Assembly: GCF_013408425.1 (NCBI RefSeq)
Contig: NZ_JACBYV010000001.1
Span: forward strand, 4,588,001-4,652,000
DNA length: 64,000 nucleotides
Source: Pseudomonas flavescens
GTDB lineage: Bacteria > Pseudomonadota > Gammaproteobacteria > Pseudomonadales > Pseudomonadaceae
Direction of reading: 5' to 3'
Part shown: positions 6,807-57,691 of the stretch, piece after piece
How positions within the stretch are numbered: position 1 is the first letter of the stretch
Layout: the number at the start of each line of letters is the position of its first letter
Notes under the pieces: generated by a model
The model's database searches: none
Told to the model about the DNA's origin: nothing
What the model saw: only the letters and a program-made list of their open reading frames with translations
Made by a program: the position numbers and the translations under genes

Positions 6807-8958
6807 CAACCTGGCAGCAGCCGGCAAGGGAGGCGATCAGGACCCACTGCGTCAGGGCCTGGTGCTGCTCTGCCGCCAGCTCGGCAGACCGCTGACGGGG
6901 GCCGAACTGGCCGATGGCATCGCCCTGGAGCAGGGCCGCCTGCCCCTGCGCATGGTCGCCCGGGCCCTGCGCCGTGCGGATATCGTCGCACGGGTCGCCG
7001 AGGAGCCGCTCAGGCGGATCGACGATTACCTGCTGCCCGCCTTGCTGCTGCTCGAAGACGGACGCTGTGTGGTGCTGGTCAGCCAACACGACGAACAGGC
7101 CGATATTCTCGTGCCCCACAGCGATGGCGGCGTACAGCGTCTGGCCATCGCCGACCTGCAAAGCCTCTACAGCGGCATGGCGGTGTTCGCCAAATGCCGC
7201 TACCGCCCCGATGGGCGTGCCGAAGAGTTCGCCAGCCCAACTCGCGAGCACTGGTTCTACGGGGCCCTCAAGCGCCTGCGCCGCTCCTATGTCGAGGTCG
7301 CCGTGGCGGCCTTCATCGCCAACCTGCTGGCCATTGCCGCTGCGCTGTTCGCCATGCAGGTCTATGACCGCGTGGTGCCCAACGCCGCCTTCGACACCCT
7401 GTGGGTACTGGCCAGTGGCGTGGCCCTGGCCATCGTCCTGGAAAGCCTGTTGCGCGGGCTGCGCGCGCACCTGCTGACGACCCTGGGCAAACGCCTGGAC
7501 CTGCAGCTGTCGTCGTTGCTGTTCGAGCGGGTGCTCAATACCCGGCTGGGCGCCAAGCCCGCCTCGGTCGGCGCCTTCAGCACGCAGATCCGCGAGTTCG
7601 AGTCGGTGCGCGAGTTCTTCACCTCGTCGAGCGCGGCGGTGATCAGCGACCTGCCCTTCGTGCTCATCTTCCTGCTGATCATCGCCCTGATCGGTGGCCA
7701 TGTGGTCTGGGTGCCTGCGGTCGCGGCGGTGCTGATGGTGTTGCCCGGGCTGCTCGCCCAGGGGCGTCTGGCGCGGCTGTCACGGCAGAATCTGCGCGAG
7801 GGGGCGGTGAAGAACGGCATCCTGCTCGAATCCATCGAGCACCTGGAAACGGTCAAGGCCAGCCGTGCCGAGGGCCGCTGCATGCACCTGTGGGAAACCC
7901 TCACGGCGCAGCTCGCCGGCAGCGCGATGAAGACCCAAAGCCTGACCTCGGCACTCAGCTACGGGGTGAGCACGGTGCAGCAGCTCTGCTACGTCGGCGT
8001 GGTGGTGTTCGGCGTGTACCGCATCAGCGATGGCTACCTGAGCATGGGGGCGCTGGTGGCCTGCTCGATTCTTTCCGCGCGGACCATTGCGCCGCTGTCG
8101 CAGATAGCCGGCATTCTCGGCCGCTGGCAGCACACCAAGGTCGCCCTCGAAGGCCTCGACCAACTGATGACCGGCCCGGTGGAGCGCCCCGCCGGCCAGC
8201 GCTTCGTACGCAAGGAAAACCTGGCAGGTGATTATCGACTCGAGCAGCTGCGCCTCAGCCACGATGATGCGCCGCCCATTGTCGACGTCAACGCCTTGAG
8301 CATTCGTGCCGGTGAGCGGATCGCCCTGCTGGGCGGCAACGGCGCCGGCAAATCCACCCTGTTGCGCCTGCTCGCCGGGCTTCTCGACCCGAGCACCGGG
8401 CGGGTGATGGTCGACGACATCAGCCTGACCCAGATCGATCCAGCGGATCGCCGCCGGCATATCGGTTACCTGCCTCAGGACATCGCCCTGTTCTACGGCA
8501 CGCTGCGCGACAACCTCAATCTGGAGGGTGCCGCGGTCAGCGACGAGGAGCTGTTCGAGGCACTCGACGGCGTCGGTCTGGGCGCCTGGGTGCGCAGCCA
8601 TCCGCTGGGTCTGGACATGCCCATTCAGGGCAATGCCAGCCTGTCCGGCGGCCAGCGCCAGGCGGTCGGGCTGGTGCGCGTGCTGGTGCAGGATCCGCCC
8701 ATCGTACTGCTCGACGAACCGACGTCCTCGTTCGACCAGACCAGCGAAAGGCAGGTGGTCGAGTACCTGCAGCAGTGGATCAGCGGGCGCACCCTGATTC
8801 TGGTTACCCACAAGAAGGTCATGCTCTCGCTGGTGGAGCGCGCCGTGGTGATGCGCCAGGGCCGGGTGATCATGGATGGCGCGCTGGATCAGGTGGTGCA
8901 GGACAACGTGGTGAACGCGCCAGCGGAAAGCCGAGGAGGCAATCATGCCGTCCAATGA
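6796..8958 (+). CDS. Type I secretion ABC transporter (LapB-like permease/ATPase)
   Basis: A 720-residue inner-membrane exporter. Residues about 1-130 resemble a C39 peptidase-like domain but lack the usual catalytic cysteine context, so this is probably a degenerate substrate-docking domain. Membrane helices lie between about 165 and 440. The ATPase domain carries Walker A GGNGAGKST (about 512-520), the signature LSGGQ (about 616) and Walker B IVLLDEPTSS (about 636). Length and order fit the transporters of large adhesins (LapB type). The start codon lies inside the end of the TolC-like gene, and the stop overlaps the start of the adaptor gene, so all three are one translational unit. It should energise export of the upstream adhesin. 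Confidence 0.93.
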   Translation: MDPDNLAAAGKGGDQDPLRQGLVLLCRQLGRPLTGAELADGIALEQGRLPLRMVARALRRADIVARVAEEPLRRIDDYLLPALLLLEDGRCVVLVSQHDEQADILVPHSDGGVQRLAIADLQSLYSGMAVFAKCRYRPDGRAEEFASPTREHWFYGALKRLRRSYVEVAVAAFIANLLAIAAALFAMQVYDRVVPNAAFDTLWVLASGVALAIVLESLLRGLRAHLLTTLGKRLDLQLSSLLFERVLNTRLGAKPASVGAFSTQIREFESVREFFTSSSAAVISDLPFVLIFLLIIALIGGHVVWVPAVAAVLMVLPGLLAQGRLARLSRQNLREGAVKNGILLESIEHLETVKASRAEGRCMHLWETLTAQLAGSAMKTQSLTSALSYGVSTVQQLCYVGVVVFGVYRISDGYLSMGALVACSILSARTIAPLSQIAGILGRWQHTKVALEGLDQLMTGPVERPAGQRFVRKENLAGDYRLEQLRLSHDDAPPIVDVNALSIRAGERIALLGGNGAGKSTLLRLLAGLLDPSTGRVMVDDISLTQIDPADRRRHIGYLPQDIALFYGTLRDNLNLEGAAVSDEELFEALDGVGLGAWVRSHPLGLDMPIQGNASLSGGQRQAVGLVRVLVQDPPIVLLDEPTSSFDQTSERQVVEYLQQWISGRTLILVTHKKVMLSLVERAVVMRQGRVIMDGALDQVVQDNVVNAPAESRGGNHAVQ

Positions 8959-10120
8959 CCGGCTGCGCCGACAGCTCGAAGACCCCTTGCTCAGCGCCAC
9001 CCACCCGCTGTTCCGACCCCTGCTGTGGACGATTCTGGCTACCGTACTGCTGGCCATCGCGTGGGCTGCCTGGGCCGAGCTCGATGAAGTGACGCGCGGT
9101 GATGGCCGGGTGGTGCCGTTCACCCGTATTCAGAAGATCCAGAGCCTGGAGGGTGGCATTCTCGATCGTCTGCTGGTCGGCGAAGGCGATCTGGTGGAGG
9201 TCGGGCAACCCCTGGTGCGGTTGGACGAAACGCGCTTTCGTACCTCGTTCCAGGAATCGGCCAACCAGTCGGCGGCCATGCGCGCCACCATCGCCCGCCT
9301 GGATGCCGAAGTGCTCGGCAAGGACCGCATCGCATTTCCCGAGGACATCGACCCCGCCAGCCCCCTGGCCCGCTCCGAGCAGGAGCTGTTCAAGTCGCGG
9401 CGCGACAAACTGCAGGATGGTGTCAGTGCCATCAACCGGCAGATCCGCCTCTCGCAACAGCAACTCGACCTGGTCGAGCCGTTGGTGGCCAAACGTGCCG
9501 TGAGCCAGATGGAAGCACTCAAGCTGAGCCAGGAGATCGCGACGCTCAACGGCAAACTCACCGAACTGCGCAGCAGCTACTTCCAGGATGCCTACACCGA
9601 GCGGCAAAGCAAGAAGGCCGAACTCAGCGCCCTGGAGCCCATCGTCCAGCAGCGCGAGGATCAGTTGCGCCGCACCGAAATCCTTTCACCCGTACGCGGC
9701 CGGGTGAACACCGTGCTGATCAATACCCGCGGCGGGGTGATCCAGCCTGGCGAGCCGATCATGGAGGTGATCCCGGTGGAGGATCGGCTGCTGATCGAAG
9801 CGAGGATCAAACCCCGCGACGTGGCCTTCCTGGTGCCCGGCATGCCCACCAAGGTGAAGATCACCGCCTATGACTACAGCATCTACGGTTACCTGACCGG
9901 CACCCTGGAACAGATCAGCGCCGACACCATCGAGGAGGAGACGGCACAGGGCAAGGAGTTCTACTACGAGGTGCTGATCAAGACCGACGGCAGCCAGCTC
10001 AAGCGGCGCGACGAAATCCTGCCGATCATTCCGGGCATGGTGGCCGAGGTGGATATCCTCAGCGGCAAGCGCACGGTGCTCAACTACCTGCTCAGGCCGC
10101 TGCTGAAGGCGCAGTTGTAA
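8945..10120 (+). CDS. HlyD-family type I secretion periplasmic adaptor (LapC-like)
   Basis: A 391-residue membrane-fusion protein. A short cytoplasmic N-terminus is followed by one membrane helix (PLLWTILATVLLAIAWAAWA), then GDGRVVP and the lipoyl half-motif (EGGILDRLLVGEGDLVEVGQPL). A long coiled coil spans about residues 95-235. The second lipoyl half contains the typical ILSPVRGRVNTV, and a beta-barrel region follows (MPTKVKITAYDYSIYGYLTG). It bridges the ABC transporter and the TolC-like channel. Its start overlaps the end of the transporter gene by 14 bases. Confidence 0.93.
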   Translation: MPSNDRLRRQLEDPLLSATHPLFRPLLWTILATVLLAIAWAAWAELDEVTRGDGRVVPFTRIQKIQSLEGGILDRLLVGEGDLVEVGQPLVRLDETRFRTSFQESANQSAAMRATIARLDAEVLGKDRIAFPEDIDPASPLARSEQELFKSRRDKLQDGVSAINRQIRLSQQQLDLVEPLVAKRAVSQMEALKLSQEIATLNGKLTELRSSYFQDAYTERQSKKAELSALEPIVQQREDQLRRTEILSPVRGRVNTVLINTRGGVIQPGEPIMEVIPVEDRLLIEARIKPRDVAFLVPGMPTKVKITAYDYSIYGYLTGTLEQISADTIEEETAQGKEFYYEVLIKTDGSQLKRRDEILPIIPGMVAEVDILSGKRTVLNYLLRPLLKAQL

Positions 10121-10400
10121 TGAAACCCGACAGGGCGCAGCAGGCATCTTCGCTGTTCGAGACGCCCAGTCGTCGACTGCCGCGGGCGACACGCCGACAG
10201 GCCGGTGTTCCCGCCTGGTGTTAGTCACAAAGTGCTATGGCGTGGCGCATGGCCGCTTGCTATTAAGTATCTACTGGCAAGACCTCTGTGCGTCATCGGC
10301 ATCATCCCTGCCGACGCCATGTACAGGTGGCCGTGCCCTGCGCAACCAGCCGCTCGACGAAGGCTGCTGCGCGTTCGCCGCATCGAGCGACTGCAACGGC
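10121..10400. other. Gap between secretion genes and Tad genes
   Basis: About 280 bases without a recognised gene. A 34-codon reading frame starts at 10120 (TAATG overlap with the adaptor stop) and ends at 10224. It resembles nothing I know and may be chance. I see no convincing terminator or promoter. Confidence 0.4.
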
Positions 10401-10883
10401 ATGGGGATCAGGGAAGTGCCTCACTCTTCAGAAATGCCTTCGGCTCACAAGCAGCGCGGTGCCGTCGCCGTCGAATTTTCCATCGCCTTCATCATTTTCT
10501 TCCTGATCTTCTACGGCCTGGTGGGTTACAGCATTCCGTTCCTGCTCAGCGCCACCTATCAGGAGCTGGCCACCGAAGCCCTGCGCGATGCCATTCGCTC
10601 GCCCGATACCCGCGCGCCCACGCCGGAACAGCAAGCGCTCTATCAGCAGCGCGTGTTGCAGACGATGCGTAATTCCTGGTTGCCGGAAGCCTGGATGCAA
10701 CCCTGCGCGGGCTACGACGGCTTCCTGAAAACCGGTGCGCAGTGGAGCGTCTGCGTACGCCACGACAACCCCGAAAGCATCATGCCGCCATTCTCCATCT
10801 TCGGTTGGAAGGTGCCACAGTTGCCCAGCGAGATACGCGGTGAGGCGACCATTCGCTTGTACAACGCCGGGTCGGGGAGCTGA
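10401..10883 (+). CDS. TadE-like minor pilin protein
   Basis: A 160-residue protein if started at the ATG at 10401, or 149 if started at 10434; neither has a strong ribosome site. The N-terminus QRGAVAVEFSIAFIIFFLIFYGLVGYSIPFLL is the hallmark of the TadE family: a short basic leader, a glutamate inside the hydrophobic helix, and a single membrane segment. The rest (W.PEAW, CAGYDGF, PQLPSEIRGEATIRL) is a small extracytoplasmic domain. TadE, TadF and TadG are minor proteins of Flp/Tad pilus machines. It is two bases from the TadG-like gene, and a second TadE-like gene follows that. The rest of a Tad machine (ATPase, secretin, prepilin peptidase) is not in this window. Confidence 0.75.
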   Translation: MGIREVPHSSEMPSAHKQRGAVAVEFSIAFIIFFLIFYGLVGYSIPFLLSATYQELATEALRDAIRSPDTRAPTPEQQALYQQRVLQTMRNSWLPEAWMQPCAGYDGFLKTGAQWSVCVRHDNPESIMPPFSIFGWKVPQLPSEIRGEATIRLYNAGSGS

Positions 10884-10885
10884 GC

Positions 10886-12958
10886 ATGGAGCGCATTCGA
10901 TCCGACCTGCAGCGCCAGCGCGGTGCGTTCAGCATTCTCAGCGCCGCGACCCTGGTCATGGCCATCCTGTTTCTCTCTCTGGTGGTGGACACCGGGCGCC
11001 TGTATCTGGAACAGCGCAAGCTGCAGAAACTCGCCGACACCGCAGCCCTGGAATCGATCTCCCGACTCGCGGCCGGAAACTGCGCGCTGGACACCGTCAA
11101 CGCACAGCTCTACGCCCTGGAAAACGCTACCTCTTACGGTTTCCCCGGCAGCGACCTGCAGTCGCTGGCCTCCTCCTGCGCAAGCATCACGATCGTCGAT
11201 GGCCTCCGGGTACCGACCATCGATGCCGGTGGCAGGGCCGTCAGGGTGGTCACCAGCAGCCGGGTGCCCGCCAGCATCATCGTGCGTACCGGCGGCCTGT
11301 TCGGCCTTCCCGGCAATGCCACCGTGAGCCTGCAAGCCGTTGCGGTGGCCGAGAAAGACAGTGACCCGCTGACGGTATTCAGCGTCGGCTCGCAACTGCT
11401 CGACCTCAACGGCAACGGCGTGGTGCCGAGGCTGCTCAAGGCCGCCGGAGTGAACCTCAGCGGCCTGACCCTGCTCGACGCCGACGGGCTGGCGAATGCT
11501 CAGGTGACCCCAGCCAGCTTGCTGCAGGCACTTGGCGTGAACCTGGGGATAAACCAACTGAGGGCACTGACCTCCGAGGGGCTGGTAGACCTGGTGGATA
11601 CCCAGATCGGGGTGATCGGTATTCAGAAACTGGTCGATGTATCGGCGAAGCTGGTCGACCACAACCAGGCGCTGGCCGCCGATATCAGAGCCCTGGGCAG
11701 CACCCTGGCGAACTCGCAGTTGCAGAACGCCACGGTAAACCTGCTGGCGACCGACGACCGCCCCGGCCTGTTGAAGCTCGTCAGCGGCCCGGGCCAGGCC
11801 GTCGGCTCGGCACTGGATGCCAAGCTGGCGCTTGGCGACGTGTTATCCACAGGCCTGATGACTGCCGTTCAGGGACGCGGCCTGCTGGTGGATCAACTGA
11901 ACCTTCTCGGCCTGGTGAAGGTGCAGCTTGGCGTCGTGGAGCCGCCAGCCATCGGTATCGGCCCCGTTGGAACGACAGCGTTCAACGCCCAGACTCGCAT
12001 GCACATCGATATCGACAGCTCCGGTGTGCCTCTGGCCAACTCGCTGCTCAATATATTGGGCACCTCGATCAAGCTGCCCATCATCATCGATCTGGTGAGT
12101 GCCAAAGGCGAAGTGACGGATATCGACTGTTCTCGGGCAGAACCGGAGGCGACCATCGACGTCGAGTCCACGGTCGGCAATATCTGTATTGGCGATATGC
12201 CCAACGGCACGCTGTGGTCGACCCGTGCCAGCTGCACCGAATCCAACCTGCAGGACGCCAGCATTCTCCGGCTGCTGAACGTCGACCTGATCAAGGGCAA
12301 GGCTGCAGTGCCGCTGATTGGCACCGGTACCAATCCAGTTCGCGATGAGGTGACGCTCGCCGAGGACGAATCGGAGATCACCCAGGTCAATCAGTTGAAG
12401 ATTGGCGACTCGATCGCCAACCTGCTCTCGCAGGTCACCAGAATGCTAGGGCTCGGGGTGCCGAAGGGAGCGGACGGTTCTCCGGGCTTCACTCCCGCCC
12501 AGGCTGCGCAGATCGCCGATAAGTACCTCGCGGCTCACAGCAGCAAGGATGCCATTCGAGACGCCATGAAAAAGGATGGCCTTACCTGGCCCAGACCCGT
12601 GCTGTTGTTGCTGGATACGACCATGCCCGATGAATGGCACAGCAAGCTGAGTCTGGTGAATTGCTCCACCAACAAGGTGCGCTGCCGCGATGAGCTGATC
12701 ACTTCATTGCAGACAAAACCCCAGGGCGGGCTGCTGAACAGCGTGCTGACCGGCCTGGCCAGCTCGCTTGGCCTGGGTAGCAACGCCCAGCCCTTGCTGC
12801 TCACCATCCTCAATCCGGTAATCGATCTGATCAAACCGCTGCTCAACTCCGTGGGCACGGCCGTCAGTAGCCTGCTCACCAGCCTCGGTCTGGAACTGGG
12901 CAAAAGCGAAATCAAGGTCCACAGCATCAGCTGCGGCATCCCCCAGCTGATTCGATGA
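10886..12958 (+). CDS. TadG-like pilus assembly protein
   Basis: A 690-residue protein. The N-terminus (QRGAFSILSAATLVMAILFLSLVVDTGRLYLEQRKLQKLADTAALE, given here as a landmark, about residues 10-55) is the Tad N-terminal helix found in TadG proteins. The following region (FSVGSQLLDLNGNGVVPRLL, then leucine-rich NLSGLTLLDADGLANAQV) resembles the Tad C-terminal domain. I see no clear metal-site motif of a von Willebrand domain. It probably anchors in the inner membrane with a large periplasmic part. It lies between two TadE-like genes and overlaps the next start (ATGA), so the three are one operon. Confidence 0.75.
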   Translation: MERIRSDLQRQRGAFSILSAATLVMAILFLSLVVDTGRLYLEQRKLQKLADTAALESISRLAAGNCALDTVNAQLYALENATSYGFPGSDLQSLASSCASITIVDGLRVPTIDAGGRAVRVVTSSRVPASIIVRTGGLFGLPGNATVSLQAVAVAEKDSDPLTVFSVGSQLLDLNGNGVVPRLLKAAGVNLSGLTLLDADGLANAQVTPASLLQALGVNLGINQLRALTSEGLVDLVDTQIGVIGIQKLVDVSAKLVDHNQALAADIRALGSTLANSQLQNATVNLLATDDRPGLLKLVSGPGQAVGSALDAKLALGDVLSTGLMTAVQGRGLLVDQLNLLGLVKVQLGVVEPPAIGIGPVGTTAFNAQTRMHIDIDSSGVPLANSLLNILGTSIKLPIIIDLVSAKGEVTDIDCSRAEPEATIDVESTVGNICIGDMPNGTLWSTRASCTESNLQDASILRLLNVDLIKGKAAVPLIGTGTNPVRDEVTLAEDESEITQVNQLKIGDSIANLLSQVTRMLGLGVPKGADGSPGFTPAQAAQIADKYLAAHSSKDAIRDAMKKDGLTWPRPVLLLLDTTMPDEWHSKLSLVNCSTNKVRCRDELITSLQTKPQGGLLNSVLTGLASSLGLGSNAQPLLLTILNPVIDLIKPLLNSVGTAVSSLLTSLGLELGKSEIKVHSISCGIPQLIR

Positions 12959-46758: not shown

Positions 46759-50282
<3,524 letters not shown>

Positions 50283-50302: not shown

Positions 50303-50331
50303 AAAAAACCCGGCTTAAAGCCGGGTTTTTT
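50303..50331 (+). terminator. Intrinsic terminator of gyrB
   Basis: The stem CCCGGCTT-A-AAGCCGGG is flanked by an A-run on the left and TTTTTT on the right, 20 bases after the gyrB stop. It may also serve the convergent lipid operon. Confidence 0.93.
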
Positions 50332-50364: not shown

Positions 50365-51297
50365 TCAAGCCCACCAGTACCGCACCATATGGAAGAACAC
50401 CGGGGCCGCGAAGCACACCGAATCGAGGCGGTCGAGCATGCCGCCGTGGCCTTCGATCATGTGGCCCCAGTCCTTCACGCCGCGATCGCGCTTGATCGCC
50501 GACATCACCAAGCCGCCGGCGAAGCCGAGCAGGCACACCAGCAAGGCGAACAGGCCGGCCTGCCAGAAGGCGAACGGGGTGATCCAGTACAGCGACGCGC
50601 CGATCAGGGTCGCCAGGGCCACGCCACCGAAGAAGCCCTCCACGGTCTTCGACGGCGACAGGTTGGGGGCGATCTTGCGTTTGCCCGCCAGCTTGCCGCA
50701 GACGTACTGCAGCACGTCGGATATCTGCACCACGATCACCAGCCAGGCGATCAGCAGCAGGTTGCGGCCCTCGTAACCGGCGATCTGCAGGGTCAGCAGC
50801 GCCGGCACGGTGGAGATGCAGTACACGGCGATCATCAGCCCCCACTGCACCTTGGACGTGCGCTCCAGGAAGCGTGTGGTGTCGCCGCCCAGGGAGGAAA
50901 GGATCGGCAGCAGCAGGAACAGGTAGACCGGAATGAAGATGGCGAACAGACCGTACCAGCCAATGCCGATCAGCAGGTACTGCATCGGCAGCGCGAAGTA
51001 GAACGCCGCGACCAGTGCCGGATAGTCGCTGCGCCGGGTCGGCGTCAGGGTCATGAACTCGCGCAGGGCATAGAACGACACGCAGTAGAACAGCACCACC
51101 ACGCCGATATTGCCGAACAGGAAGGCGAAGCCGATCACCAGCACCATCGCCCACCAGGCATTGATGCGCGCATTGAGGTTGTCGATGACCGGATGTGGAC
51201 CGGGGCCGGCACGAAATTTCAGCAGCCAGCCGATCAGGCTGGCGAGCAGCAGCAGGGCGCCAATGCCGGCGAACAACAGCAAGGTATTGCGATCCAT
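50365..51297 (-). CDS. CdsA-like phosphatidate cytidylyltransferase (YnbB-like)
   Basis: A 310-residue polytopic membrane enzyme. The CTP-transfer signature is clear: LSPSKTVEGFFGG then SAIKRDRGVKDWGHMIEGHGGMLDRLDS (landmark). CdsA enzymes make CDP-diacylglycerol from phosphatidate and CTP. I start at the ATG at 51297 with GGAGG upstream; the longer frame to 51396 is not credible. It is a second, non-housekeeping copy in style: it ends a six-gene operon whose first gene is a CDP-alcohol phosphatidyltransferase-like protein, so its product may feed that enzyme. E. coli YnbB is the nearest analogue by context. Confidence 0.85.
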   Translation of the reverse strand: MDRNTLLLFAGIGALLLLASLIGWLLKFRAGPGPHPVIDNLNARINAWWAMVLVIGFAFLFGNIGVVVLFYCVSFYALREFMTLTPTRRSDYPALVAAFYFALPMQYLLIGIGWYGLFAIFIPVYLFLLLPILSSLGGDTTRFLERTSKVQWGLMIAVYCISTVPALLTLQIAGYEGRNLLLIAWLVIVVQISDVLQYVCGKLAGKRKIAPNLSPSKTVEGFFGGVALATLIGASLYWITPFAFWQAGLFALLVCLLGFAGGLVMSAIKRDRGVKDWGHMIEGHGGMLDRLDSVCFAAPVFFHMVRYWWA

Positions 51298-51298
51298 C

Positions 51299-51919
51299 TC
51301 AAACCTCCTCGGGAGCCAGGGCCAGCAGAGCGTCGCGGGCGCGTTCGAGGAAAGCGTCTTTGCCCTCTTCCTCGCCCAAGCCCAGTGGTGCGCCAAAATT
51401 CAGGGTGCACAGCAGCGGTAATGGCAGGGCTCGGCCCTTGGGCATCACCCGATTGAGGTTGGCGATCCACACCGGGATCACTTCCACGTCCGGCCGCGTC
51501 TTGGCCAGGTGATAGAGACCTGCCTTGAAGGGCAGCAGGCCGTCCTCGAGGTTGCGTGTGCCTTCCGGGAAGACGATCAACGAGTCGCCCTCTGCCAATG
51601 CGTCGAGCATCGACTGCAGTGGGTTGGCATTTGGGTCACTGCGTTGACGGTCCACCAGCACACCATTGAAAACCCGCTGGATCAGGAAGCTGCGCAATGA
51701 GCCCCTCATCCAGTAATCCGACCCGGCTACCGGGCGGGTGCGTTTGCGCAATTCGGCAGGTAGCGATGCCCACAGCAGCACGAAGTCACCGTGGCTGCTG
51801 TGGTTGGCGTAGTAGATGCGCTGTACCGGTTGCGCGGTGCTGCCCAGCCACAAGGCGCGGGCTCCCGTGAGCAGACGCGCACCGGAGGTGATGAGAAAGG
51901 CGACCAGTGACGCAAGCAT
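51299..51919 (-). CDS. PlsC-like 1-acylglycerol-3-phosphate acyltransferase
   Basis: A 206-residue acyltransferase. The HX4D motif is NHSSHGDFVLL and the second block is FPEGTRNLEDG. It is short, with one N-terminal hydrophobic helix. It should acylate a lysophospholipid-like acceptor and give phosphatidate, the substrate of the CdsA-like enzyme encoded one base further on. E. coli ynbABCD has no such gene, so this is an addition. Confidence 0.85.
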   Translation of the reverse strand: MLASLVAFLITSGARLLTGARALWLGSTAQPVQRIYYANHSSHGDFVLLWASLPAELRKRTRPVAGSDYWMRGSLRSFLIQRVFNGVLVDRQRSDPNANPLQSMLDALAEGDSLIVFPEGTRNLEDGLLPFKAGLYHLAKTRPDVEVIPVWIANLNRVMPKGRALPLPLLCTLNFGAPLGLGEEEGKDAFLERARDALLALAPEEV

Positions 51920-51929
51920 GGACAGCTCC

Positions 51930-52388
51930 TTATCCGAATCGAATGTGTGAAAGCCAGGGCATCAAGACGATGGCCGCCAGGGCGATGAATACCTGCAGGC
52001 CGAGCCACAGGCCCTGAAGTCGCAGCAGACGCAGCGCGCCCTGGCCGCGTTGATCCCAGGAGCGAGAACGCTGATCGGCCTTATGGCCAAGCATGACCAG
52101 CGCCTGATCGAGCTCGGCGGTGCGGCGGGCGAGTTGCGTCGGGTCGCCCGACACGTGCGTGAACAGCTCGGCATCCAGCGCCACGCGCAGCGCGTAGTAC
52201 TTCTGCAGCAGGCCGCAGACCAGCAGAAGTACGCACACTGCACCGCCGGTAGTGAGCGCCATGAAACCGAGCAGCGGTCCCAGGCCGATAACCAGAGCGA
52301 TCAGGGTCAGGGCGCTGGAGAAACGGTCGAGTGCTTTGCCGCGGCGCAACAGCCCGGCGATCAGTTGCAGGTGCATTTCATCGGTCAT
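51930..52388 (-). CDS. Small membrane protein of the lipid operon
   Basis: A 152-residue protein with about three membrane helices (LTLIALVIGLGPLLGFMAL, GAVCVLLLVCGLLQKYYAL, and LWLGLQVFIALAAIVLMPWL near the end). I do not recognise the family. Between helices two and three there is a charged stretch. It overlaps the phosphatase gene by 11 bases and is ten bases from the acyltransferase gene, so it belongs to the operon. It may be an accessory subunit of the lipid enzymes. Confidence 0.7.
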   Translation of the reverse strand: MTDEMHLQLIAGLLRRGKALDRFSSALTLIALVIGLGPLLGFMALTTGGAVCVLLLVCGLLQKYYALRVALDAELFTHVSGDPTQLARRTAELDQALVMLGHKADQRSRSWDQRGQGALRLLRLQGLWLGLQVFIALAAIVLMPWLSHIRFG

Positions 52389-53727
52389 GCAAGGCGCCTC
52401 CAGCTGTGGCGGCCGGTTGGCTCAAGATGCCCTCCAGCGCCTGTAAATGAGCGTTTCCAAGCACAACCTGGGGGCGAGCCTGGCGAAGCACTGAAACCGC
52501 CTCTGCGACGCTCCTGCAGCGGCCGCTGTGCAGCAGCCAGGCAGCGATAGCGGTGGCGCTGCGCGAGTAGCCAAGCGCGCAGCACACCAGCACCGGCCCG
52601 TGCTCGCGCAGATCGTCGATGGCCACCGCCGCCTGCAGGCAGTGCGCGGTGCTCGGGGCGATCAGATCGAGGCAAGCCAGTTCGCGGTAGACCTTGCCTT
52701 CAACCCGGCACGGCAGTTCGGCACACAGGTCGGCGATAGCGCTGAAGGCCTGCCCTTCTCCCTTGGCTGGAATGCGACCCAACCAGACGCCGTCGGCCAC
52801 TTCATCGGGTTGCGGATGCTTGCGCGTCCAGGCCCGAGAGTTGATCCAGGCACCCAGCAGATAAGGCGCCAACAACCAGGTGCTGGCAGCGCTGAGGCGG
52901 CCGTCGGCACGCTTCTGAAAACCCTGTGCATCGAACAGTGCATAGTTCAGCGCCACCATCAGCAACGAAACCGCCGGCCACAGCAACCACAGAGCGAAGC
53001 CGCCGAAGTGGATCGCCAGCGCACTGCACAGCGCTGCACCGAAGGCGTAGCGCAAGGCCAGCCGCCAGCGCTTCGGATCGCGAGCCAGGCGCCAGGCGAA
53101 CAGTGGGCTGCGCCCCTCGCTGGGCCATAGCCACAGGCACAGGAAGCCGGCGAGCATGCCGGTCGGCACGTCGATGAAATGATGCTGCCAGGTGGTCAGT
53201 ACCGACAAACCGATCAGAGAGAACCAGACGTGCAGCACGACACGCCATACACCAGCCGCCGAATGGGCAAAGCAGGCCCAGAGCACCACCAGCAGGGTGA
53301 TGTGCAGCGAGGGTGCCTGATTGAAGGGTTTGTCGAAGCCCATCAGTACGTCGAACATCAGCCCGAACAGGCCATCCAGCGCCGGACGGTCGAAGGTGAA
53401 GCGCAGCGGCCAGAGCAGGAAGCAGGTGATGCAGATCACTTGCGCGGTCAGCAAACGCAAGCCGAGCCTGTCCACTGCACCACGGGTGGCCGGTAGCAGG
53501 AAGGCCAGGCCGTAGAGCAGATCGATCGACCAGTAGGGAATGATCGTCCAGGGCCACAGGGGAATCTGCCGCTCCCAGGCGAATACCAGGCTGCCGACGT
53601 CATCGCGCTGCCCGGTGAACCAGTTGGCGAAGCCATAGGTGCCGAAGAACAGTGGCGCGAGCAGTAGCAGCCAGAGGACGCCGCGCTTCCATAACCCGCT
53701 TTCGCGGATGACCGCGGCGGGCGTCAT
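52378..53727 (-). CDS. PAP2-like membrane domain fused to dual-specificity phosphatase (YnbD-like)
   Basis: A 449-residue protein. I start at the ATG at 53727, overlapping the previous stop (TGATG); the longer frame lies in the upstream gene. Residues about 1-270 form a polytopic PAP2/Ipt1-type domain with FNQAPSLHI and TTWQHHFIDVPTG. The C-terminal third (about 310-440) is a dual-specificity phosphatase with the CX5R loop CALGYSR in VLVCCALGYSRSATAIAAWLL. This matches E. coli YnbD. It may remove head-group or lipid phosphates. Confidence 0.82.
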   Translation of the reverse strand: MTPAAVIRESGLWKRGVLWLLLLAPLFFGTYGFANWFTGQRDDVGSLVFAWERQIPLWPWTIIPYWSIDLLYGLAFLLPATRGAVDRLGLRLLTAQVICITCFLLWPLRFTFDRPALDGLFGLMFDVLMGFDKPFNQAPSLHITLLVVLWACFAHSAAGVWRVVLHVWFSLIGLSVLTTWQHHFIDVPTGMLAGFLCLWLWPSEGRSPLFAWRLARDPKRWRLALRYAFGAALCSALAIHFGGFALWLLWPAVSLLMVALNYALFDAQGFQKRADGRLSAASTWLLAPYLLGAWINSRAWTRKHPQPDEVADGVWLGRIPAKGEGQAFSAIADLCAELPCRVEGKVYRELACLDLIAPSTAHCLQAAVAIDDLREHGPVLVCCALGYSRSATAIAAWLLHSGRCRSVAEAVSVLRQARPQVVLGNAHLQALEGILSQPAATAGGALHDR

Positions 53728-55484
53728 CAAGACACCCGCTGCGCCAGGGACACGCTGAAGATGCCCCACTCGTCGACACGTTGAGTCAGCTTGCGAAAGC
53801 CTGCCGCTTCGACCAACTGATCCATTTCCGCCTGGCTGCGCCGACGCATCACCCACGCCTCGCCGCCACGGTGGCTGGTCAGCGCGCGAGCGATCAGCTC
53901 CAGTTGCGGGTGCCACGGCTGACCGGTATAGATCAGGTAGCCGCCCTCTTCCACGGCTGCCGCCAGACCCGCCAGCGAGTCGCCGACCATCTGGTTGCTG
54001 CCGAACAACTCATAGAGGCCGGAGACCACTGCCAGTGTCGGCTTCGGATCCAGCGCAGCCAGGTCGGCTTTGTCGAAAGCATCGCCTTTGACGAAGCGGG
54101 CGATGCTGCCCAGGCCCTTCTGCTCGATCAGCGCGGCACCGTCGCGCACGTTGATGTCGCTGTAGTCGCGCAGCAGGATCGAGTCGGGCTTGTCGGTACC
54201 CTGCTCCAGCGCTTCAAGGATGTAGCGGCCGTGGCCTGCAGCGATATCGACGATGCGTACCTGGCGCGCTTGCTCACGCAATTTGCCCATGGCCAGGCGC
54301 AGCAGTTCTTCGGCGTGCACCTTGCGTTGACGGATACCCCGCCAGCCGATGGAGTTCAGGTAGTTGCGATCGATCAGTCGGCCCACTGGCGAGCTGCCGG
54401 TGGGCGTATTGCGGTAAACGTAATCCAGGGTACTGCCGGAATCGAAGCCGGTGTCGAAACCCAGCTTCACGCCCGCAGAAACACTGCTGCCAAGCCGCAT
54501 GCTGGCCCGCGTGGCGCGCCAGTAGAGATCGCGCAGTGAGTTCTTCGGCAGCGGTGCAGCCAGTTCTTCCGCCTCGGCGCAGCTCCAGCCGAGGCGGTCG
54601 GCGTCCAGCAGTGAGGGTCGCTGCAGCGGCTGCTCGAAGGCTTTCAGTACGAAGCGGCGAATGCGGGTCAGTGCGTGGGCACGGTCACGCTCGCCCAGGG
54701 TGTCATGGAAGAACCCGGGCAGGCTGTGCATTTCTTTGTCCAGGCTGCCCAGGCGCTCGAAGAACTGCTCCTGGGGCTTGCGGTGCACCACGAAATCGCT
54801 GCCGGAGATCAGCAACTGGGTGGGGATCTGGATCGCCTGAGCGTCGGCGACCACGCGCTCGGCAGCCTCGTACAGGCCCAGCAGCATGTTCACCGAGATC
54901 GGCCGGCTGATCAGCGGGTCCTGTTCGAAGGACGCTATGCGCTGCGGATCGTGGCTGAGGTACTTGGCCTTCACGTAGCTGTTGACGAAAAAATTGCCAC
55001 GCCAGGCGCGCATGAGCTTCAACCCGGGCCGTGCGAACGGTACGTACAGCTTGACCTTGAAGGCGGGTGAGGCGAGCACCAGTGCGCGGATCTTCGGTGC
55101 GTAGTCATGCGCCCAGGTGGCGATGATCACCGCACCGACGCTTTGCGCCAGTACCACCATGTCCGCGGTATCGATGCCGTGAGCGCTGGCGATGTGATCG
55201 ATGAAGGTCTGCACGTCGCGCACGCTGGTGGCGAAGCTTGGGCTATCGCCCCGTGCACCCGGTGATTCACCGTGACCGCGAGCGTCCCAGGCGAAGAAAT
55301 CGAAACCCTGCAGGCCCAGCTCCTCGACCAGGTGGGCCATGCGCCCGCCATGTTCGTGGCCGCGGTGGAACATGACGACAGCACGACGGGGCGTGTCGGG
55401 CTGTGCATCTGCAGCAGGCCAGTGACGGTAGAACAGGCTGACGCCGTCATGGGTCGTGAAGGTATTGGAGCGGACTTCATTCAT
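53727..55484 (-). CDS. Alpha/beta hydrolase fused to methyltransferase (YnbC-like)
   Basis: A 585-residue fusion. Residues about 1-290 are a lysophospholipase-like hydrolase: FFAWDARGHGESPGARGD, nucleophile motif VVLAQSVGAVI (serine about 116), and GSDFVVHR with a late histidine in LPGFFHDTLGERDRAHAL. Residues about 340-585 are a class I SAM methyltransferase with VRIVDIAAGHGRYILEAL. The same fusion and length are found in E. coli YnbC. Its substrate is unknown; a lipid with a removable acyl group and a methylated head is a guess. Confidence 0.82.
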   Translation of the reverse strand: MNEVRSNTFTTHDGVSLFYRHWPAADAQPDTPRRAVVMFHRGHEHGGRMAHLVEELGLQGFDFFAWDARGHGESPGARGDSPSFATSVRDVQTFIDHIASAHGIDTADMVVLAQSVGAVIIATWAHDYAPKIRALVLASPAFKVKLYVPFARPGLKLMRAWRGNFFVNSYVKAKYLSHDPQRIASFEQDPLISRPISVNMLLGLYEAAERVVADAQAIQIPTQLLISGSDFVVHRKPQEQFFERLGSLDKEMHSLPGFFHDTLGERDRAHALTRIRRFVLKAFEQPLQRPSLLDADRLGWSCAEAEELAAPLPKNSLRDLYWRATRASMRLGSSVSAGVKLGFDTGFDSGSTLDYVYRNTPTGSSPVGRLIDRNYLNSIGWRGIRQRKVHAEELLRLAMGKLREQARQVRIVDIAAGHGRYILEALEQGTDKPDSILLRDYSDINVRDGAALIEQKGLGSIARFVKGDAFDKADLAALDPKPTLAVVSGLYELFGSNQMVGDSLAGLAAAVEEGGYLIYTGQPWHPQLELIARALTSHRGGEAWVMRRRSQAEMDQLVEAAGFRKLTQRVDEWGIFSVSLAQRVS

Positions 55485-55494
55485 TGGAGCATCC

Positions 55495-56115
55495 CTATTC
55501 CACAGTGGGGGAAGCCGCTTGCGCCAGACCTTGGCGTACGCGGTTGTAGAGCGTGTACAGCAGCAGCGCGGTGATGATCGCGAGAATCGGGTTTATCCAG
55601 CTCAGCGGCAGCAGCGCGGTAGCTACACCAGCGCCGAGCACGCCAAAGCAGAAGGCGCGGTCGCTTTTGCCCATCGGCCCGTCGTAGCGCCGTGAAGCGC
55701 CCACCATGGGCCCCATGACGCCGGCGTACTCGCTGATCAGCGCGGCGATGACCAACAGCACCACCAGCACGGGAGACACGCCGGGCAATAGCGCGAAAGG
55801 CAGGAACAGCGCGGCATCGGCGATCACGTCGCAGAGTTCGTTGAGGTAAGCGCCGAGTGTGGATTGCTGGCCGAACTCACGGGCCAGCATGCCGTCCACC
55901 GCATTGAGCGCCATCCGCAGCAGCATCCACAGCGGGATCAGCGCGAACAGCCAGAGGTGGTCGGGAAAAAAGGCGAGCAGCAGACCTATCAGCACCGACA
56001 CGGCGGCAGCGCTCAACGTGACCTGATTGGCTGTCACGCCACGGTCGAAGAGGCGCTGAACCAATGGGCGCAGCAGGTTCTGGAAGCGAGGTTTGAGCTG
56101 ATAAATCGAAAGCAT
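55495..56115 (-). CDS. CDP-alcohol phosphatidyltransferase-like protein (YnbA-like)
   Basis: A 206-residue membrane protein and first gene of the six-gene lipid operon. It has the CDP-alcohol transferase region NAVDGMLAREFGQQSTLGAY then LNELCDVIAD. The usual pattern is D-x2-D-G-x2-A-R-x8-G-x3-D-x3-D. Here Asp 2 (74), G75, A78, R79, G88 and Asp 4 (96) are kept, but the first Asp is Asn71 and the third is Asn92. Whether it is active, with altered metal binding, is open. Six helices are predicted. The head-group acceptor is unknown. Confidence 0.85.
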   Translation of the reverse strand: MLSIYQLKPRFQNLLRPLVQRLFDRGVTANQVTLSAAAVSVLIGLLLAFFPDHLWLFALIPLWMLLRMALNAVDGMLAREFGQQSTLGAYLNELCDVIADAALFLPFALLPGVSPVLVVLLVIAALISEYAGVMGPMVGASRRYDGPMGKSDRAFCFGVLGAGVATALLPLSWINPILAIITALLLYTLYNRVRQGLAQAASPTVE

Positions 56116-56348: not shown

Positions 56349-57125
56349 TCAGGCGAGATCGTTGGCCGTCTCTACGGCAGTGCTCTGTGGATCGAGAGCA
56401 CCGAGTTCCTGTTGCGCCTGGCTGACCCATGCGAAAGCGCGGTCGTTGAGGTTGGCGATCGCTCGCGGGCCTTCGCCCTCGGCAAACAGCGGCGGGCCGA
56501 ATACCACCTGCACCGTACCCGGCTTCTTGCCCCAGCCCTCTTTCGGCCAAAACTGGCCAGCGTTGTGGGCGACGGGCAGCACCGGTAGCTTGCTGTTAAC
56601 CGCCAGCGCCGTACCACCTCGGGAAAACTTGCCGATCTGGCCGTCCGGAATCCGTGTGCCTTCAGGGAAGACCAGCACCCAGGCGCCCTGCTCCAGACGT
56701 GCGCGACCCTGGCTGGCGAGCTGTTTGAGGGCCGCCTTGGGGTTGCTGCGGTCGATGGCGATTGGCTTGAGCATGGCCATCGCCCAGCCGAAGAACGGCA
56801 CGTACAGCAACTCGCGCTTGACCACCTGGCTCAGTGGCTCGAAGTAGGCGCACAGGAAAAAGGTTTCCCAGGTGCTCTGGTGCTTGGCAAGGATCACGCA
56901 GGGTTGGTCGGGAATGTTCTCCTGGCCCTTGATCTCGTAGCGAATGCCGGCGACCACCTTGGCCAGCCATACGGCGCAGCGGCACCAGTTCTGCACCACG
57001 AACCGGTAGCGTGCCCGAAACGGCAGGAAGGGTGCGACGAACACGCTGATGATGCACCAGACGAACGAGCTGGAGGACAGCAACAGATAGAAGAGGAAGG
57101 TTCTGAAGAACTGCACTGTCGACAT
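56349..57125 (-). CDS. Lysophosphatidate acyltransferase-like protein
   Basis: A 258-residue acyltransferase of the PlsC type. One N-terminal membrane helix region is followed by KHQSTWETF (an HX4E form of the HX4D motif), then LVFPEGTRIPDG and LPVLPVAHNAG. It should add the second acyl chain to lysophosphatidate in the inner membrane. I start at the ATG at 57125 (MSTVQFFRTF). It lies 35 bases downstream of gmhB, as in other Pseudomonas. Confidence 0.9.
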   Translation of the reverse strand: MSTVQFFRTFLFYLLLSSSSFVWCIISVFVAPFLPFRARYRFVVQNWCRCAVWLAKVVAGIRYEIKGQENIPDQPCVILAKHQSTWETFFLCAYFEPLSQVVKRELLYVPFFGWAMAMLKPIAIDRSNPKAALKQLASQGRARLEQGAWVLVFPEGTRIPDGQIGKFSRGGTALAVNSKLPVLPVAHNAGQFWPKEGWGKKPGTVQVVFGPPLFAEGEGPRAIANLNDRAFAWVSQAQQELGALDPQSTAVETANDLA

Positions 57126-57160
57126 GTGAGCAATTACCGTTGCAGGCCTGGCCTGCGCTA

Positions 57161-57691
57161 TCAAGTGAGAAGCTGAGCAGCGACCGCTGCCAGATCATCG
57201 AATACCAGGGTTCCCGCTGGCAATGCTTTGGCCAGGGTGCGTTGACCCTTGCCGGTTTTCACCAGCACGGGCTGACAATCGACGGCCAGTGCCGTTTGCA
57301 GGTCACTGCCGCTGTCGCCGACGAACCAGATTCCGCTCAGTGGTACGCCATAGTGCTCGGCGATCTGGCGCAGCATGCCGGGCTTCGGCTTGCGGCAATC
57401 GCAGCCATCATCCGGACCATGCGGGCACTGCACGATCAGGCCGACTTCACCGCCCTGCTCCGCCACCAGCTCGCGCAGCCGCGTGTGCATGGCCTCCAGC
57501 ACGGCCAGCGGGTAGTAACCGCGGGCGATACCGGATTGGTTGGTCGCCACCGCCACCGTCCAGCCCGCTTTGCTCAGGCGAGCGATGGCCTCGATGGAGC
57601 CCGCTATCGGGATCCACTCGTCGAGGCTTTTGATATACGCATCGGAGTCATGATTGATGACGCCGTCGCGGTCGAGAATGATCAGCTTCAT
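57161..57691 (-). CDS. gmhB: D-glycero-D-manno-heptose 1,7-bisphosphate 7-phosphatase
   Basis: A 176-residue HAD phosphatase for the heptose of the lipopolysaccharide core. HAD motif I is KLIILDRDGVIN, motif II ATNQSG, the zinc site CPHGPDDGCDCRKPKPGM, and late motif FVGDSGSDL. I start at the ATG at 57691 and not at 57706. Confidence 0.94.
   Translation of the reverse strand: MKLIILDRDGVINHDSDAYIKSLDEWIPIAGSIEAIARLSKAGWTVAVATNQSGIARGYYPLAVLEAMHTRLRELVAEQGGEVGLIVQCPHGPDDGCDCRKPKPGMLRQIAEHYGVPLSGIWFVGDSGSDLQTALAVDCQPVLVKTGKGQRTLAKALPAGTLVFDDLAAVAAQLLT

Follow-up and report, generated by a model that had tools for sequence, protein, structure and literature searches.

In Pseudomonas aeruginosa, the genes PA2541-36 have been named arc1A-F, for antagonism resistance cluster 1, and are reported to form one of three Gac/Rsm-controlled clusters needed under attack by Burkholderia thailandensis; five of the six products are predicted to act on phospholipids, and four resemble enzymes of phosphatidylglycerol (PG) synthesis (Ting et al. 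2022, PMC8926400). According to a further report, P. aeruginosa without arc1A is more sensitive to type VI secretion system (T6SS) attack with lipase effectors (PMC12663445), and Gac/Rsm defense has been described across Pseudomonas (preprint, PMC11888443). Here, we analyzed a 64,000-nucleotide stretch of the Pseudomonas flavescens genome (the window, to which coordinates refer unless a locus is named), in which six ORFs, all confirmed present, lie side by side on the minus strand at 50365-56115. Sequence comparison firmly identifies this operon as the orthologue of arc1A-F, gene for gene. In our view, it is reasonably probable that the operon is this species' arc1A-F in the sense of a Gac/Rsm-induced phospholipid branch that would protect the membrane from the phospholipase toxins of rivals. 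The features of the locus are as follows.

55495..56115, minus strand: gene 1, arc1A/ynbA orthologue, 206 aa; CDP-alcohol phosphotransferase fold, from the PF01066 match and the identity to YnbA
53727..55484, minus strand: gene 2, arc1B/ynbC orthologue, 585 aa; fusion of a monoacylglycerol-lipase-like hydrolase with Methyltransf_20
52378..53727, minus strand: gene 3, arc1C/ynbD orthologue, 449 aa; joins a PAP2-like membrane domain to a dual-specificity phosphatase domain
51930..52388, minus strand: gene 4, arc1D orthologue, 152 aa; membrane protein with three predicted segments, probably partnering gene 3
51299..51919, minus strand: gene 5, arc1E orthologue, 206 aa; PlsC-like acyltransferase with motifs NHSSHGD and FPEGTRN
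50365..51297, minus strand: gene 6, arc1F/ynbB orthologue, 310 aa; CdsA-like CTP-transferring enzyme, PF01148
56120..56132, minus strand: GGA hairpin, candidate RsmA site just upstream of the gene 1 start codon, likely at the ribosome-binding site
50303..50331, no strand assigned: palindromic stem carrying A and T tracts, probably a terminator shared by gyrB and the operon

For the orthology comparison, the published PA2541 primer was sought in 25 genomes of a neighboring genus (PAO1 itself lay outside this comparison), and one genome matched, at a locus designated L158. In this P. aeruginosa-like genome, all four pieces of the PA2541-deletion primers are found around gene 1 with 0-1 mismatches, and six genes stand in an order identical to that of the window, with protein identities of 46-81% (74, 79, 62, 46, 72, and 81% for genes 1 to 6; the arc1 names of genes 2-6 are assigned by order). 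A GGA motif lies ahead of the first gene in both clusters. The surroundings differ: the L158 cluster follows a 1221-aa ORF, which we take to be tamB, whereas the window cluster sits between gyrB and an acyltransferase gene that is presumably hdtS. By descent, a role in antagonism defense is likely in P. flavescens as well. The present analysis contributes the orthology and gene order, the catalytic motifs, and the candidate RsmA site, and the Gac/Rsm induction and arc1A-dependent resistance come from the work of others on P. aeruginosa. Elsewhere in the window genome (G000:C1:3957221-3959902), there is also a gene with the DUF2339 domain of the Arc3A family, a second published antagonism-defense family.

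PA2541 is listed among the targets of RsmA (PMC4066749), its one site lying at the ribosome-binding site, and the window leader of gene 1 carries a GGA hairpin, GGAAGGGAGTTC, which is a candidate RsmA site. Leaders were compared over 90 Pseudomonas-family loci (82 distinct), consisting of the window, 80 loci named Pseudomonas, and nine of 12 further Pseudomonadaceae loci (L137-L139 omitted). Hairpins were required to hold ANGGA within 40 nt, with a loop of 6-8, at least three pairs, and one G-U pair allowed, and the shuffled controls kept the motif. ANGGA is present in 61 of the 82 distinct gene 1 leaders and lies in a short hairpin in 45 of them, against a shuffle mean of 6.9 and maximum of 15, a comparison that yields no probability since the leaders are related by descent. 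Similar hairpins precede gene 2 in 34 of 67 distinct leaders (shuffle mean 6.0, maximum 13), and a second Rsm site inside the operon, ahead of gene 2 (53727-55484), appears possible. The count for gene 5 is not raised (13/74; shuffle mean 6.4, maximum 15), and the leaders of genes 3, 4, and 6 gave 0/70, 2/85, and 0/63, respectively. Loci having no ANGGA before gene 1 include L037-L042, L045, L046, L048, and others; in these, Rsm control may have been lost, or a different start may be used.

The protein families given in the original prediction proved right, as judged by Pfam and by homology to Escherichia coli. Matches above the Pfam cut-offs (in brackets) were obtained for gene 1 (CDP-OH_P_transf, 30.2 bits [22]), both halves of gene 2 (Hydrolase_4, 247.7 [27], and Methyltransf_20, 517.3 [21]), gene 3 (DSPc, 42.2 [33.5]), gene 5 (Acyltransferase, 67.1 [23]), and gene 6 (CTP_transf_1, 234.7 [24]). 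Gene 6, which was tested minus its first codon (309 aa) in the Pfam, NCBIfam, and YnbB comparisons, falls below the NCBIfam equivalog model for phosphatidate cytidylyltransferase (84 vs 385 needed). The hydrolase half of gene 2 has monoacylglycerol lipases as its closest solved structures by sequence. In gene 5, the PlsC/AGPAT motifs HX4D and FPEGTR are present as NHSSHGD and FPEGTRN and are conserved in its homologues. Gene 3 also agrees with a fusion of a PAP2-like and a dual-specificity phosphatase (DSP) domain: in addition to the DSPc match, there is a PAP2 match that is under the cut-off in the window protein (17.5 vs 27.2 bits) but reaches E<=0.01 in 10 of a diverse set of 11 homologues that includes the window protein. 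Three motifs of the PAP2 region, PL.....(R/K)P, NQ.PSLH, and S.L...QHH..D, are invariant in all 11, and they deviate from the canonical PAP2 motifs in having PSLH in place of PSGH and a motif 3 Ser without the following Arg. Equally invariant in the DSP domain are C383 and R389 (CX5R) and D354, which we read as the probable general acid. When compared with solved structures, the gene 3 profile matched protein-tyrosine phosphatases (PTPs) and DSPs, and a PAP2 enzyme was absent among the best 60 of 174 matching structure chains. The conserved Asp and CX5R resemble those of PTPMT1-type phosphatases, and PTPMT1 itself (3rgo, 4.7e-11) is seventh among the matches listed; however, six other PTP or DSP chains score above it, and the DSP domain of gene 3 is fused to a PAP2-like membrane domain.

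In E. coli MG1655, four of the six genes have homologues in ynbABCD, with identities of 46% for YnbA (gene 1), 57% for YnbC (gene 2), 41% for YnbD (gene 3), and 39% for YnbB (gene 6), and YnbA shares the unusual metal motif of gene 1 described below. The E. coli operon differs in its order, A-B-C-D, and in having neither the PlsC-like nor the small membrane gene, so the window operon is not an A-B-C-D set free of further genes. The original prediction spoke of an expanded ynbABCD; the homology of the four genes stands, but the label is misleading, as the six-gene set had already been named arc1A-F and given a phenotype. The text of PMC8926400 does not mention ynbA, and in the literature under the ynb gene names we found no title on the ynbABCD genes. 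Nor are the acyltransferase and the small protein additions special to the window genome, as had been supposed, since both occur in nine of 17 families sampled (E. coli is one of the 17; of the nine, one has the two genes apart, and among the other eight families one is a cut contig).

Comparison across genomes, which had been set beforehand as both a check and a possible refutation, showed that the association of these genes is non-random. A contig scan, in which the best 80 of 520 relatives were kept, all of them named Pseudomonas, revealed the six genes in the same order in 79 of 80 loci; the sole exception, L074, lacks the last two genes and is a 6 kb contig ending inside the cluster. The presumed hdtS is also at the locus in 35 of these 80, as in the window, together with gyrB in 24 of the 35. 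The methyltransferase family PF12147 was detected in 111 of 199 genomes of the window genus (one marginal), in 16 of 369 genomes of the class (13 of these exceeding the cut-off), and in 27 of 398 genomes of the phylum, the latter two sets overlapping and the phylum set including nine genomes of the window genus. From the class and phylum scans, 33 regions were fetched, with weak PF12147 matches (below ~40 bits) excluded. Besides the window's own family (f1), contiguous six-gene clusters in the same order are present in families f14, f109, f191, f206, and f219, and f170 shows this order interrupted by a 717-aa WG-repeat ORF (in L154, such an ORF separates YnbC from YnbD at 10208-12361). The last two genes are swapped in f4, and all six are found in two places in f151. 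Other arrangements are A-B-C-D in E. coli and f68, A-B-PlsC-C-D in f76, A-B-C in f66, and C-D-small in f70, with partial sets in f126, f188, and f133 (a cut contig). The order thus persists in 79 of the 80 Pseudomonas loci and recurs in other families; on these grounds, a random association of neighbors was rejected, as was the idea that the six-gene form is a Pseudomonas novelty.

Over 115 loci (L001, L003-L082, L124-L156, and L158), YnbA was counted in 113, YnbB in 110, YnbC in 115 (by selection), YnbD in 110, PlsC in 105, and the small protein in 107. These loci are not independent: 92 of the 115 belong to Pseudomonadaceae, and L133/L069, L138/L017, and L139/L020 are probably duplicate contigs, leaving ~112 distinct. 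A YnbC tree of 41 rows (including seven of the 80 named Pseudomonas loci, with L132 omitted) joins E. coli with L156 (99/99) and places both outside a 34-row group (93/94, not starred) comprising all six-gene rows along with some partial sets. The other joins lie on long branches and are unsafe according to a program warning, and the tree does not show which form is older. Elsewhere, the window genome carries one more CdsA-type gene and three further genes of the CDP-alcohol phosphotransferase type, and the operon is therefore an additional set. In L006, L009, and L010, the YnbC match is longer than that of the window, with an extra stretch in the methyltransferase half in L006. A PEMT-type phospholipid methyltransferase (8143-8883) and a SnoaL-like gene (8730-9269) adjoin the partial set of L131, and a SnoaL-like gene (11025-11621) lies beside YnbA in L126; these neighbors may hint at a methylated head group.

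The small protein encoded by gene 4 matched no family in Pfam or NCBIfam. A homologue search returned at least 120 matches; none of those listed has a Pfam domain, and the distant members found by its own profile were not among them. With this profile, built from close relatives and applied to the 115 loci, the small gene was detected in 107 of 110 loci with YnbD (the exceptions being L001, L129, and L130) and in none of the five without it. In G149, YnbD lies ~42 kb away from an A-C-PlsC-B cluster, and the small gene adjoins the relocated YnbD (E 4.9e-15). The small gene is also kept in two f219 genomes whose set is C-D-small, with A encoded on the opposite strand and neither PlsC nor a CdsA-like gene close by. 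Since it travels with YnbD even when YnbD is relocated, gene 4 probably encodes a subunit or partner of the PAP2/DSP phosphatase, and this pairing is a new detail of the present analysis. It had been proposed to check whether the two extra genes always co-occur, which they do not: both are found in 103 loci, PlsC only in two, the small gene only in four (one of them the cut contig L074), and neither in six. Thus, the two genes are not strictly linked; the partner that the small gene follows is the PAP2/DSP gene.

From these families, we infer the following course of events. The operon would be switched on via Gac/Rsm when the cell senses an attack. Gene 5 (PlsC-like) would re-acylate lysophosphatidate or a lyso-lipid, gene 6 (CdsA-like) would make CDP-diacylglycerol, and gene 1 would move the phosphatidyl group onto a phosphorylated polyol. 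The PTPMT1-like DSP domain of gene 3, together with gene 4, would strip the leftover phosphate, and the PAP2 domain may handle a second lipid phosphate. The hydrolase of gene 2 would trim a lyso-lipid or monoacylglycerol, and its methyltransferase would methylate an intermediate or the product, the outcome being a PG-like, possibly methylated phospholipid that would resist or repair lipase damage. The chain from phosphatidate through CTP activation to alcohol transfer, already suggested in the original prediction, is still plausible, but its transferase step is less certain than was supposed there because the metal-binding motif of gene 1 is altered, and no lipid product can be named. Bis(monoacylglycero)phosphate as a product found no support in one literature listing.

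It is unlikely that the operon serves repair or salvage without any new lipid, i.e., that lysophospholipids produced by lipases are removed or given back an acyl chain by the hydrolase and the PlsC-like enzyme, and the other enzymes recycle phosphatidate to ordinary PG. The likeness of the gene 2 hydrolase to monoacylglycerol lipases and the conserved PlsC motifs of gene 5 would suit such a function, as would the reported arc1A protection, which is directed against lipases (PMC12663445). However, P. aeruginosa is described as already requiring Aas to regenerate phosphatidylethanolamine from its lyso form (PMC8926400). Moreover, the methyltransferase domain and the invariant altered transferase would be superfluous for salvage.

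The motif of CDP-alcohol phosphotransferases reads D1xxD2GxxAR...GxxxD3xxxD4. Gene 1 does not carry all four of these Asp residues; its metal motif is NxxDGxxARx8GxxxNxxxD, with Asn at D1 and D3. Asn at these two positions and Asp at D2 and D4 are found in 113 of 113 YnbA homologues as well as in window gene 1, and the basic position of the motif is Arg in 111 and Lys in two of the 113. Elsewhere in the window genome there are three more PF01066 genes; two, taken for PgsA and PssA, have all four Asp, and the third (L162) does not fit the motif pattern used. In the homologue search, 8000 candidates were scored and at least 120 close relatives obtained, a depth at which the outer boundary of the Asn/Asn group was not reached. 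The Asn/Asn site of the YnbA/Arc1A homologues is likewise a new detail of the present analysis. In Mycobacterium tuberculosis PgsA1, according to its structural description, Mg-1 is bound by D1, D2, and D3 and Mg-2 by D3 and D4, with D4 presumed to act as the base (PMC6506517). By sequence, the closest solved structures of gene 1 are 6h53 and 5d92, mycobacterial and archaeal phosphatidylinositol-phosphate synthases. In the alignment with AF2299, R153 and R192 of gene 1 fall on Arg residues of the phosphate pocket, and the mycobacterial alignment is off by one at the first of them; by our own reading, R153 and R192 would correspond to R155 and R195 of PgsA1, and the highly conserved GKSDRA stretch would align with the phosphate pocket. 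Apart from its Asn at D1 and D3, gene 1 differs from phosphatidylinositol-phosphate synthases after D4, where an Arg has been described as conserved in users of inositol phosphate (PMC6506517). This residue is Val in window gene 1 and in E. coli, so that some phosphorylated polyol different from inositol phosphate may serve as the acceptor.

A far-reaching proposal, which we advance tentatively and consider rather doubtful as a whole, is that Arc1A/YnbA forms a distinct subfamily of CDP-alcohol phosphotransferases whose two-metal center has been rebuilt on two invariant Asn residues, and which with its partners would make an undescribed class of phospholipid, an inducible anti-lipase shield across Proteobacteria including E. 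coli. It is quite unlikely that gene 1 is instead a CDP-diacylglycerol-binding scaffold or sensor in an operon that regulates lipid flux and makes no head group. Such a role would agree with the Asn found throughout at D1 and D3, positions that hold metals in PgsA1 (PMC6506517); yet the constancy of both Asn residues along with D2 and D4, and the conservation of GKSDRA, resemble a working site rather than decay, and the CdsA-like gene accompanies it in 110 of the 115 loci.

It is very unlikely that the operon is an ordinary reserve copy of PG synthesis, related to stress and unconnected with antagonism in P. flavescens. Against this counts that, to our knowledge, PG synthesis is not known to involve a hydrolase/methyltransferase fusion. 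The resemblance of four arc1 products to PG-synthesis enzymes, pointed out by the original authors, would favor such a copy, but in the same report arc1 mutants survive like the wild type under heat, peroxide, salt, and detergent stress (PMC8926400). An anti-phage system was also considered and not adopted: when the six proteins were scanned with PADLOC, the single match was a weak one, of gene 2 to a Mad2 model (1.9e-4).

Several points weigh against a Gac/Rsm-induced phospholipid branch directed at the phospholipase toxins of rivals. The defect of P. aeruginosa Arc1 was not explained by any single toxin tested in the first study as reported there (PMC8926400), and in one published test arc3A was the stronger factor and arc1A auxiliary (PMC12663445). 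The literature on Arc1 with T6SS since 2022, as far as it was accessible to us, contained no arc1 lipid product. Gene 1 is without two of the four metal-binding Asp residues, and the central transfer may not proceed in the usual way. As to the regulation, the shared descent of the leaders limits the shuffle comparison as noted, 21 of the 82 distinct gene 1 leaders have no ANGGA and Rsm control is therefore not general, and the 26-nt hairpin of the window folds no better than its shuffles (z -0.70), a longer stretch folding differently. Finally, the cluster is patchy in the genus (~110/199 genomes) and therefore dispensable.

The arrangement of the locus is compact. From the coordinates, the junctions between genes 1 and 6 measure +10, -1, -11, +10, and +1 bases in turn, in keeping with the earlier statement that gaps are ten bases at most: the largest gap is 10, and two junctions overlap. 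For gene 6, the ATG at 51297 is a better start than the TTG at 51396 of the ORF list and gives 310 aa. Downstream, gyrB is convergent to the operon and ends at 50282, and the stem at 50303-50331 sits between the two; the number of terminator-like palindromic sites in the region is not raised (7 vs 8.1 in shuffles). Immediately upstream, on the same strand, lies a second PlsC-like acyltransferase gene (56349-57164), which is the one we take to be hdtS. A scan for sigma-70-like sites listed none between 56349 and gene 1 and two in the region (2.1 expected), one of them upstream of hdtS.

Three clusters of P. aeruginosa have been connected with resistance against interbacterial toxins, and arc1 is among them. 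By linking arc1 to ynbABCD, to the pairing of a phosphatase with a small protein, and to a transferase with an unusual active site, the present analysis turns an unknown lipid operon into one that is concretely testable.

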